Shown: positions 15,511-19,971 of the stretch, piece by piece
Layout of the letters: each line of letters begins with the position of its first letter
Position numbering within the stretch: position 1 is the first letter of the stretch
NCBI GenBank assembly: GCA_029859805.1
Contig: JAOUCL010000017.1
Location: 1-32,477, forward strand
Direction: 5' to 3'
From: Rhodospirillales bacterium
Lineage (GTDB): Bacteria; Pseudomonadota; Alphaproteobacteria; Kiloniellales; JAKSDN01
DNA: 32,477 bases
Position numbers and translations under genes: made by a program
The notes under the pieces: generated by a model
The model's input: only the letters and a program-made list of their open reading frames with translations
What the model was told of the DNA's origin: nothing
The model's database searches: none

Positions 15511-16956
15511 ATGCACGCACCCGAAGTTTCGTTCCTGCCGCCGGACAAAATCACGGTGATGCGCGGCAGGGTGCTGGACCTCCTCGAAAAACGCGGCGTC
15601 CAGATGGAGCATCCCGAGGTAACCCGGCGCCTGGCCGAGGCCGGCGCGACCGTCGACGGCGAAACCTCGAACGTGCGCTTTCCCGCGTCCTTCATGGAAG
15701 AGGTGCTGGCGCGGGCGCCCAAACGGGTCGAGCTGTTCGGCCGGGACGGCGCCCGGAGGCTGGAAGTCCCCCGCCCCGAGGGCGGCTTCTTGCTGCGCAC
15801 CGGGACCGGCGCCCACGGCTATGTAGATCCGGAGACGGGGTCGTACCGCAAGGCGACCGCAGCCGACGCGGCCGCCTGGGCCAGGCTGGCCGATGGGCTG
15901 GACGAGGTCGATTTCTGCGCCTTTCCCTTCGTCGACGGGGTGCCCGTGCCGAGCGCCGACCTGCACGGGCTGATGGCGATCCTGAGCAATACCCGAAAGC
16001 ACGCCTGGATCCAGCCCTATACCGCCGAAAGCGTCGAATATCTGCTGAACCTAGCCGCGGCCGCCGCCGGTGGCGAGCAGGCCCTACGCGACGCCCCCCG
16101 GGTCAGCGTCATCGCCACGGCGCTGACCCCGTTCTCGGTCAAGTTCATGGACCTGGAGGTAATCCGGCTGGCCGCGCGCTTCGGTGTGCCGGTGCACGCC
16201 TGCAGCCTGCCCAGCGCGGCCGGCACGGCGCCCATCACCATGCCGGCCACGGTGCTCATGGCCGCGACCGAGATCCTGGCCATGCTGGCGGCGGCGCAGG
16301 TCATGGAACCGGCGGTCCCGGTGATCGCCACGCCGCTCGTCTTCGCCCTCGACATGCGCACCGGCCGGGGCCTGCAGTCCAGCGTCGAGGCCATGCAGGG
16401 GGCCGCCGCGGCGGTGCAGCTCATGAAACAGGGCTTCGGCCTGCCGACCCACACCTACGGCTCGGGGACGGACTCGCCGGTCCCCGACGGCCAGTCGATG
16501 GCCGAGCGGGCCCTGCTCGGCCTGCTGACGGGTCTCGCCCGGGCGGACATCCTGGGCGGCGCCGGGCAGCTCGAGGTGGCCACCGCCATCAGCCCGGTCC
16601 AACTCTGCATCGACGACGAGCTCGCGGCCATGATCCGGCGCCTGCTCCGCGGCCTCGAGGTGGACGACGATACCCTGGCCTGGGACGAGCTCTCGGCGGC
16701 CGCCCCGGGCGGCCACTTCCTGGCCGCGCAGCACACCCTGCGCCATTGCCGGGAGGGCTTCCTGCCCAAGCTGTTCACCCGTCTGCCCCGCGACGCCTGG
16801 GAGGCCAAAGGTGAGGGCGACTTGGCCGCGCGGGCACGCGAACGCTGCGGTGCGCTGCTGAGCGAGCCTGCGCCCGAACCGCTGCCTGAGGATGCGCGCA
16901 GGGAGATGGCCGCCGTCGTCGCGGCGGCGGACCGGCGGCTCGCCGGGACCGGCTGA
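15511..16956 (+). CDS. MttB-family (non-pyrrolysine) corrinoid-dependent methyltransferase
   Basis: 481 aa, trimethylamine methyltransferase superfamily (MttB/MtgB). GAGGGGGG sits just before ATG 15511. The frame shows family hallmarks such as an N-terminal helical segment (MRGRVLDLLEKRGVQMEHPE), the central TIM-barrel segments (HACSLPSAAGTAPITMPAT) and TYGSGTDSPVPDGQSMAERA near the region where archaeal MttB has its in-frame amber codon. No in-frame TAG interrupts this gene, so it belongs to the pyrrolysine-lacking branch, known members of which demethylate quaternary amines such as glycine betaine, proline betaine or carnitine. The methyl acceptor is the Co(I) corrinoid protein encoded 14 nt downstream. 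Actual substrate unknown; no MtgA-like methyl-tetrahydrofolate transferase or RamA-type activase is in view. Confidence 0.9.
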   Translation: MHAPEVSFLPPDKITVMRGRVLDLLEKRGVQMEHPEVTRRLAEAGATVDGETSNVRFPASFMEEVLARAPKRVELFGRDGARRLEVPRPEGGFLLRTGTGAHGYVDPETGSYRKATAADAAAWARLADGLDEVDFCAFPFVDGVPVPSADLHGLMAILSNTRKHAWIQPYTAESVEYLLNLAAAAAGGEQALRDAPRVSVIATALTPFSVKFMDLEVIRLAARFGVPVHACSLPSAAGTAPITMPATVLMAATEILAMLAAAQVMEPAVPVIATPLVFALDMRTGRGLQSSVEAMQGAAAAVQLMKQGFGLPTHTYGSGTDSPVPDGQSMAERALLGLLTGLARADILGGAGQLEVATAISPVQLCIDDELAAMIRRLLRGLEVDDDTLAWDELSAAAPGGHFLAAQHTLRHCREGFLPKLFTRLPRDAWEAKGEGDLAARARERCGALLSEPAPEPLPEDARREMAAVVAAADRRLAGTG

Positions 16957-16970
16957 CGAGGAATAGCGCC

Positions 16971-17600
16971 ATGGCATTGGACGACATCTATGACTCCATC
17001 CTTGGCTTCGACGCCGAGCGGACGTCCGAGCTGGTGCGGGCGGAGCTGGCGGCCGGCACCGAGGTCCGCGCCATCCTGGACGAGGCGCTGATCGCCGCCA
17101 TGGACGAGGTGGGCGCGCAATTCAGCGAAGGCGTGCTTTTCGTGCCCGAGATGCTGATGGCGGCCATGGCCATGAAGGCTGGCCTGGAGATCCTGCGCCC
17201 GCACCTTTCCGAAAGCGAGGCCAAGCCGGCCGGCGTCGTGGTCATCGGTACGGTCAAGGGCGACATGCATGATATCGGCAAGAGTCTGGTCGGCATGATG
17301 CTGGAAGGCTCCGGGTTCCAAGTGATCGACCTCGGCATCGACGTGCCGGCCGAACGCTTCCTTGCGGCGGCCGAGGAACACCAGGCCGACATCGTCGGCC
17401 TCTCGGCCCTGCTGACCACCACCATGCCCGCCATGCAGGCGACCGTGGCCCGCTTGCGCGAGCGCAACGCCGGGCCCCGGATCATCGTGGGCGGCGCGCC
17501 GGTCAACCGGGACTTCGCCCAGCGCATCGGCGCCGACGGCTACGGCGAGGACGCCCCCGGCGCCGTAGCGCTGGCCCGCCGGCTGGTGGCCGATCGATGA
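16971..17600 (+). CDS. Corrinoid (B12-binding) methyltransferase protein, MtbC/MtgC type
   Basis: 209 aa, cytosolic methyl carrier. ATG 16971 follows GAGGAAT. The N-terminal helical cap (about residues 1-85, ending in EMLMAAMAMKAGLEILRPHL) precedes the Rossmann-like B12 domain: VVIGTVKGDMHDIGKSLV contains DxHxxG with His100 as the cobalt ligand, followed by VGLSALLTTTMPAM (SxL motif) and IIVGGAPVN (GG motif). These are the three conserved B12-binding motifs. Length fits the family. It sits directly behind the MttB-family gene, so the two form a methyl-transfer pair: the enzyme moves a methyl group from substrate to cobalt and a further enzyme passes it to tetrahydrofolate. Confidence 0.95.
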   Translation: MALDDIYDSILGFDAERTSELVRAELAAGTEVRAILDEALIAAMDEVGAQFSEGVLFVPEMLMAAMAMKAGLEILRPHLSESEAKPAGVVVIGTVKGDMHDIGKSLVGMMLEGSGFQVIDLGIDVPAERFLAAAEEHQADIVGLSALLTTTMPAMQATVARLRERNAGPRIIVGGAPVNRDFAQRIGADGYGEDAPGAVALARRLVADR

Positions 17601-19244: not shown

Positions 19245-19305
19245 CTTTTTGGGGTAGCACTTGGCCGGTGATCGCCACCAAGGCGGCGCCTGGCGGGAGT
19301 CGGCG

Positions 19306-19971
19306 ATGCAGGTCCTCTACGTCGAAGACGACAAACTGATGGCCAAGAACGTGGAGCTGATCCTCCAGAAGGAGGGTCATTTCTGCCACACCGCCGACCG
19401 GGGCGAGCGGGCGGTCGAGCTCGCCAAACGCAACACCTACGACATCATCATCCTCGACATCATGCTGCCCGATTTCGACGGCTACGAAGTCATCGAGCGC
19501 CTGCGCGCGAGCGGCATCGACACGCCCTACCTGATACAGTCGGGTCTGGTCGATCGCGACACCCGGCCGGACGGGCTGGGGTTCGGGACCCACGAGTTCC
19601 TGATTAAGCCCTTCGACGGGGTCGAACTGATCGAGAGCATGGACCGCGTCATGGCGCGCGCCGAGCAACGCAGCGCCCAGAAACGCGATTCCAGACCTGA
19701 CGGTCAGGAGCCGCCAGGCCACCATGGCCCCGAGAAGAGACGCCACAGGCGATTCGCCACCATCAAGGCCGCCAAGATCATTCACAAGAAGATCCAGACG
19801 GACTGTATCATCCTTAATATTTCCCATGGCGGCGCCGCAATCAGGTTGCCCAAGAACAAGCTCAACTGCCCCGAAAACTTCGCCCTGAAACTGCAGTCCG
19901 AACCGTTGCACTACTGCCAGGTCTGCTGGCGGTTCGGCGACAAGATCGGTGTTAAGTTCATCGGGCGCTGA
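19306..19971 (+). CDS. CtrA-type response regulator receiver fused to PilZ domain
   Basis: 221 aa; ATG 19306 has GGGAG six bases upstream (an earlier in-frame TTG at 19261 is unlikely). Residues 1-118 are a receiver: acidic pocket E7-D8-D9, phospho-acceptor Asp51 (IIILDIMLPD), Ser79 and Lys101 (FLIKPF). Wording such as VEDD, VELILQKEG, DGYEV and SGL...GLGFG closely follows CtrA of alphaproteobacteria, including the phosphorylated Asp at position 51. Instead of CtrA's winged-helix domain, a basic linker leads to a PilZ domain with the cyclic-di-GMP motifs RRHRR (145-149, RxxxR) and NISHGG (171-176, NxSxxG). It therefore appears to join phosphorelay input to c-di-GMP binding, without DNA binding. 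No kinase or cyclase is adjacent. Target may be motility, cell cycle or envelope. Confidence 0.9.
   Translation: MQVLYVEDDKLMAKNVELILQKEGHFCHTADRGERAVELAKRNTYDIIILDIMLPDFDGYEVIERLRASGIDTPYLIQSGLVDRDTRPDGLGFGTHEFLIKPFDGVELIESMDRVMARAEQRSAQKRDSRPDGQEPPGHHGPEKRRHRRFATIKAAKIIHKKIQTDCIILNISHGGAAIRLPKNKLNCPENFALKLQSEPLHYCQVCWRFGDKIGVKFIGR

Follow-up and report, generated by a model that had tools for sequence, protein, structure and literature searches.

Work on CtrA has treated it as a master regulator that binds DNA; the routes by which c-di-GMP acts on it are CckA and PopA. Response regulators that combine a receiver with a PilZ domain (REC-PilZ) are known from other bacteria. Within the CtrA circuit, PopA of Caulobacter is a receiver protein that reads c-di-GMP (PMC10333796), and Osp of Rhodobacter sphaeroides is a single-domain receiver which lacks two acidic residues and the active-site lysine and is not phosphorylated (PMC9430884). 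The CtrA residues that touch ChpT in the Brucella complex 4qpj are D9, A11, S15, L18 and M19 (PMC9981736). Here we describe a gene in a stretch of 32,477 nucleotides from a Rhodospirillales bacterium (the window), the product of which carries a CtrA-type receiver and a PilZ domain.

Results

Domain structure of the window protein

The gene lies on the forward strand at 19306..19971, starts with the ATG at 19306 and encodes 221 amino acids, as judged from the translation, the Pfam matches and the orthologs. A Shine-Dalgarno-like GGGAG (19295..19299, same strand) was read 6 bases 5' of the ATG. The product consists of a receiver domain (aa 1-118, 19306..19659), defined by Pfam, NCBIfam, the PDB match, the tree and the AlphaFold model, a linker (aa 119-141, 19660..19728) and a PilZ domain (aa 142-221, 19729..19968), defined by Pfam and the single-sequence structure model. 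In Pfam, Response_reg matches aa 3-111 (3.9e-23, 82 bits) and PilZ matches aa 143-218 (1.5e-8, 35.3 bits, above the curated cut-off of 22.5). These are the sole Pfam matches up to an E-value of 1, and Trans_reg_C, the winged-helix DNA-binding domain, is absent; the protein is therefore CtrA-derived and not a CtrA.

The active site of a response regulator is complete (E7, D8, D9, D51, S79, K101). It includes the predicted phosphoacceptor Asp51 (19456..19458), which is invariant in all 47 family members described below, and the active-site lysine Lys101 (19606..19608), likewise invariant in the family alignment. The PilZ domain carries both sequence motifs, RxxxR as R145-RHR-R149 (19738..19752) and D/NxSxxG in its Asn form as N171-ISHG-G176 (19816..19833). 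The initial annotation had pointed to CtrA-type wording around Asp51 and to a DNA-binding domain replaced by PilZ with both motifs. The translation bears out the former, as both 'SGL' and 'GLGFG' are found in the receiver, and Pfam together with the motif reading bears out the latter.

Two genomes of the same genus encode orthologs with 93-94% identity, and the flanks are collinear over 3.6 kb. The dN/dS between the window gene and either ortholog is ~0.2 for the receiver, 0.05 for PilZ and ~1.2-1.4 for the linker, so that, as judged from these substitution rates, both domains are under purifying selection. The conserved orthologs and flanks and the dN/dS of the domains show that the reading frame is real and did not arise by chance.

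Ancestry of the receiver

The best NCBIfam model for the window protein is CtrA (7.6e-34, next model 1.6e-21), where the match covers the receiver part only and lies far below the cut-off for full-length CtrA. Among PDB chains, Brucella CtrA in complex with ChpT matches best (4qpj, 2.7e-26). A tree was calculated from the receivers of the source genome, CtrA from named plasmids and other alphaproteobacterial genomes, and an outgroup of the 22 most similar receivers from non-alphaproteobacterial bacteria. A scan of contigs with a degenerate pattern was generic and gave ordinary receivers, which served as outgroup only. With an alignment of 124 columns, the splits of the CtrA group and of REC-PilZ are resolved but many inner forks are not. 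In the careful tree CtrA, REC-PilZ, a fusion of a CtrA-type receiver with MipZ (REC-MipZ) and the CtrA paralog L145 are separated from all other receivers with a support of 100/99. All REC-PilZ proteins that were found fall into a single clade (99/94), which recurs in 100% of 200 bootstrap trees, and the fusion therefore most simply arose once.

It could be argued that the window protein is an ordinary REC-PilZ response regulator without kinship to CtrA and that the CtrA-like wording came about by chance, since this architecture is familiar from other bacteria. We consider this very improbable, as it is contradicted by the grouping with CtrA in the tree and as the CtrA model beats the next NCBIfam model by 13 orders of magnitude. 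D56 and the SG(L/M) loop are common to CtrA and the REC-PilZ receiver. By sequence descent, the window receiver is thus derived from a CtrA-type receiver. A receiver tree had been named in the initial annotation as a check, and with this grouping the attempt at refutation failed.

Two f7 genera encode the REC-MipZ proteins (~480 aa; L174 = G019:C99, L187-L192), which join a CtrA-type receiver to MipZ, the ATPase of the division site. Their receivers are 54-64% identical to that of CtrA and make up a single clade (100/99) within the CtrA group. A genome of f7 or of the source genus (G000, G001, G002) encodes ~3-5 MipZ-type ATPases, compared with mostly 1 elsewhere in the order.

Structure models

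AlphaFold models the receiver with a pLDDT of ~95-98 except for the alpha4 region (residues 81-100, 61-72). For the full-length model the alignment contained receiver homologs only, which gave a good receiver and a meaningless PilZ half. Modelled from the single sequence, the PilZ half folds into a barrel of six strands, with modest confidence (pLDDT 69.5). The best matches in Foldseek are PilZ domains, among them the c-di-GMP-bound BcsA, 4xrn and PA0012 (probability 1.00, TM-score to query 0.46-0.58, but E-values from only 0.017 upwards). When this half was compared with PDB sequences by phmmer, there was no useful match, as the domain is too divergent for a single-sequence search. Structure prediction, another of the checks named for this protein, yielded a receiver that is confident outside alpha4 and a PilZ-like barrel of modest confidence.

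Paralogs and distribution of the family

The initial annotation had treated the gene as one small protein. Small it is, but it is one of ten paralogs of a lineage-restricted family, which had been missed. The source genome (G000; 5.36 Mb, 550 contigs, 97% complete) contains REC-PilZ loci on C26 (the window copy), C208, C264, C522, C115, C327, C271, C139, C533 and C266, where the C522 copy is cut at a contig end. Contamination was rejected as the source of the ten copies, as the same set is found in G001 and G002. The genome also encodes a normal CtrA (L010 on C9, 242 aa) and ChpT (C540). Besides CtrA there is another factor that resembles it, also in the DNA-binding part (L145, G000:C161).

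Of the PilZ proteins of the source genome, 13 are recognised by Pfam, and nine of these carry a CtrA-type receiver; the tenth receiver protein, C271, has a degenerate PilZ half. Motif 1 is missing from C271 and its orthologs and the acidic pocket is partly lost in C115 (ENN), so not all paralogs need be two-input switches. Six GGDEF proteins are present, and c-di-GMP can therefore be made. Subject to the completeness of the assembly, c-di-GMP receptors appear to outnumber cyclases unusually.

Two paralogs are larger proteins. The C264 copy (L137:3868-5136) is a REC-PilZ-bactofilin fusion of 423 aa, also found in G001 and G002. The C266 copy (L143:5936-9091) has 1052 aa with receiver and PilZ at opposite ends; the ~850 residues in the middle are rich in Pro, Ala and Glu, and the length of the protein varies among relatives.

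Across 47 family members, Asp51, Lys101 and a Ser/Thr at position 79 occur in every sequence and Asp8 in 44 of 46. Both PilZ motifs are kept in most of the 47, as counted by a simple regular expression which misses or misplaces a few. With a cut-off of 1e-38 family matches were found in 16/61 genomes of the order; a more distant full-length member in G005, from the same order, lies outside this strict count. The REC-PilZ members found belong to three families of the order (f1, f2 and f7).

When ~380 genomes from elsewhere in the class were sampled with a profile built on 23 members, there was no full-length match. The best matches in these genomes were to CtrA and covered the receiver only, at or above 4e-48, whereas seven members of the source genome score 1e-70 or better. 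In 397 other genomes of the phylum no profile match fell below 1e-48. In both surveys the best seven candidates per genome were scored, and REC-PilZ proteins carrying other receiver types would be missed by this approach. Among plasmids, the search returned CtrA receivers and no REC-PilZ. In the open-licence papers searched no CtrA-type REC-PilZ or REC-MipZ family was found, and hence no counterpart of a CtrA-derived, apparently single-origin REC-PilZ family with ten copies, confined to one order as sampled.

ChpT-facing and dimer surfaces

The alpha1 positions 9-19, which hold the ChpT contacts of Brucella CtrA (PMC9981736), correspond to 19330..19362 in the window. In 27 non-redundant family members the ChpT-contact positions carry the CtrA residue in 48% of cases, compared with 10% in outgroup OmpR receivers. 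For the alpha4-beta5-alpha5 dimer face, 14 positions that we assigned from OmpR-type factors, the values for the same 27 members and the outgroup are 31 and 69%. The average CtrA identity over all positions is equal (51% family, 49% outgroup). With contact sites partly kept and dimer sites largely lost, the phosphodonor side has stayed partly CtrA-like and the DNA-binding dimer side has decayed.

On average 3.1 of the five contacts are kept in the family, 4.9 in CtrA and 0.9-1.5 in other receivers. Four of five are present in C264, C115, C327, C271, C139 and C266. The window copy reads D-L-N-L-I at positions 9/11/15/18/19 and thus has 2/5, with D9 and L18 kept and A11, S15 and M19 changed to Leu, Asn and Ile. 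The ChpT of the source genome, aligned to that of Brucella by eye, reads HDLVGPIGAVNNGMEL and retains the residues facing A11 (Ala), S15/M19 (Asn) and L18 (Leu), i.e., the equivalents of A30, N33 and L37 which are the partner residues in the normal CtrA contact. As these are standard, a compensating change for the window copy is not visible there.

Genomic context

The window gene is flanked by tRNA-Gly on one side and apaG-folE-trkH on the other, neighbours which name no partner. No kinase gene was found beside it. Upstream of the window gene there are no CtrA boxes, and in the source genome family sites are not enriched over background. In three f7 genomes (L154, L120, L121) a CtrA-box-like TTAA-N7-TTAA with one mismatch stands ~37 bases 5' of the start at near-constant distance. 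Elsewhere in the window, at 15511-17600, an MttB-family methyltransferase gene is followed by a gene for a corrinoid (B12-binding) protein, a pair which likely serves methylamine-type methyl transfer; another MttB adjoins the C264 paralog.

In the sister family f7 the REC-PilZ gene is single-copy. It is flanked by gspJ and gspL and runs opposite to them in G012, G024, G038, G039, G041 and G042, where the placement in G012 and G042 rests on gspG spacing only, and in G027 it adjoins gspL of the type II secretion cluster. In the type II secretion clusters of f1 and f2 gspJ is followed directly by gspL. The position within the gsp clusters makes the secretion machinery the best target lead in f7, a lead that is limited to this family and does not extend to the window copy. 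GspE of f7 has an MshEN domain, a class which binds c-di-GMP in some secretion ATPases (PMC5013675). A second PilZ gene lies beside REC-PilZ in the type II secretion clusters of G027 and G039 (L154:9170-9793, L221:3988-4692), and the one on L154 carries two PilZ stretches. In G004 (C46, L149:4229-6178) a hybrid histidine kinase with two receiver stretches is encoded directly downstream of REC-PilZ on the same strand and is a candidate donor for its neighbour.

Discussion

The reading that we favour, and hold to be moderately probable, is that the REC-PilZ family arose once, in one order, by the joining of a CtrA receiver with PilZ, and that its members act as coincidence switches for phosphate and c-di-GMP. 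PilZ would have taken the place of the winged-helix DNA-binding domain, and the family would then have multiplied to ten copies in the source genus. Asp51 would be phosphorylated by a His-Asp relay, for which a ChpT-type phosphotransferase is the likeliest donor for the family. We see the chances of ChpT being this donor as evenly balanced for the family and as doubtful for the window copy, which might be served by ChpT with reduced affinity or by another hybrid kinase. Phosphorylation would no longer drive OmpR-type dimerisation on DNA and would act via the linker on the presentation of PilZ, which is predicted to bind c-di-GMP through R145/R149 and the N171-S173-G176 loop. The doubly informed protein would then bind a target protein, in f7 probably the type II secretion machinery. 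Phosphotransfer, c-di-GMP binding and target contact are predictions. The architecture and motifs, the CtrA origin, the number of copies, the invariant D51 and K101, the surfaces, the selection, the GGDEF proteins, the PilZ model, the context in f7 and the kinase neighbour in G004 speak for such a switch; the loss of contacts in the window copy, its uninformative neighbours, the paralogs with a missing motif 1 or a reduced acidic pocket, the 35 bits for PilZ and the pLDDT of 69.5 count against it.

The initial annotation had suggested that the protein might compete for the CckA/ChpT phosphate. As a competitor or sink it would take phosphate from ChpT and lower CtrA-P, with PilZ adding a dependence on c-di-GMP. 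The CtrA-derived receiver with its intact active site, the ChpT-facing alpha1 residues kept in the family far above background and the presence of ChpT are all in line with this. However, the window copy has two of five contacts and a Leu at the close Ala-Ala contact, while the partner residues of ChpT are standard; a pure sink needs no PilZ, which leaves the dN/dS of 0.05 on this domain unexplained; and Osp, a known receiver-type inhibitor of the same pathway, binds CckA and is not phosphorylated (PMC9430884). A sink is therefore an unlikely function, and of the original suggestion there stands a ChpT competition that would be plausible for the family, where contacts are partly CtrA-like, and weak for the window copy.

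A donor other than ChpT, i.e., an orphan hybrid kinase or phosphotransferase that would leave CtrA ancestry without CtrA wiring, is quite possible, though we lean slightly against it. The alpha1 residues differ among paralogs, as expected if the copies became insulated, and the G004 copy adjoins a hybrid histidine kinase, but the window copy has no adjacent kinase gene and at the family level the ChpT-facing residues are retained. The receiver could also act unphosphorylated, like Osp or FixT, and serve to dock or localise a PilZ domain that reads c-di-GMP. Such receivers are known in the same pathway (PMC9430884) and would fit the degraded dimer face and alpha4 region. Yet the residues missing in Osp are present here (D51 and K101 in 47/47, D8 in 44/46), which makes this a distinctly unlikely role. 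The coincidence switch remains our preferred reading. More tentatively, and with less confidence than in a different donor, we propose that the roughly ten adaptors give the CckA-ChpT relay a second layer of output that does not involve DNA, in which one relay would phosphorylate CtrA and, alongside it, these c-di-GMP-gated switches. If so, they would act on secretion, on the cytoskeleton (the bactofilin fusion) and on division (REC-MipZ), and cell-cycle phosphate and c-di-GMP would meet at the effector level.

In this family a CtrA-type receiver has come to sit on a predicted c-di-GMP receptor, and the combination has multiplied: nine of the 13 Pfam-recognised PilZ proteins of the source genome carry one. 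Should phosphorylation by ChpT hold true, the cell-cycle relay would gain direct post-translational outputs with ten branches. The paralogs offer a natural series for studying the insulation of paralogous receivers on one relay.

Compared with CtrA, the window protein belongs to the same receiver clade, shares D51, K101 and S79 and is part of a family with partly kept ChpT-facing alpha1 residues (two of five in the window copy), but it has PilZ instead of the winged helix and the alpha4-beta5-alpha5 dimer residues are mostly lost. The REC-PilZ regulators of other bacteria have the same domain order, receiver then PilZ, a likeness of architecture; in contrast to these, the family described here has a receiver of CtrA descent, is restricted to one order as far as sampled and is present in ten copies in the source genome. 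The stand-alone PilZ receptors DgrA, YcgR, PA4608 and MapZ share RxxxR, D/NxSxxG and the six-strand barrel, whereas here PilZ is coupled to a receiver that is predicted to be phosphorylatable. PopA differs in its REC-REC-degenerate GGDEF organisation, with c-di-GMP on the degenerate GGDEF and receivers that are PleD-like and not CtrA-like. Like Osp, which itself acts on the CckA/ChpT/CtrA system, the window protein is a receiver protein without DNA-binding output. The Osp/FixT hallmark of missing acidic residues and lysine is not found in it; unlike Osp it has the acidic residues, the lysine and a PilZ output.
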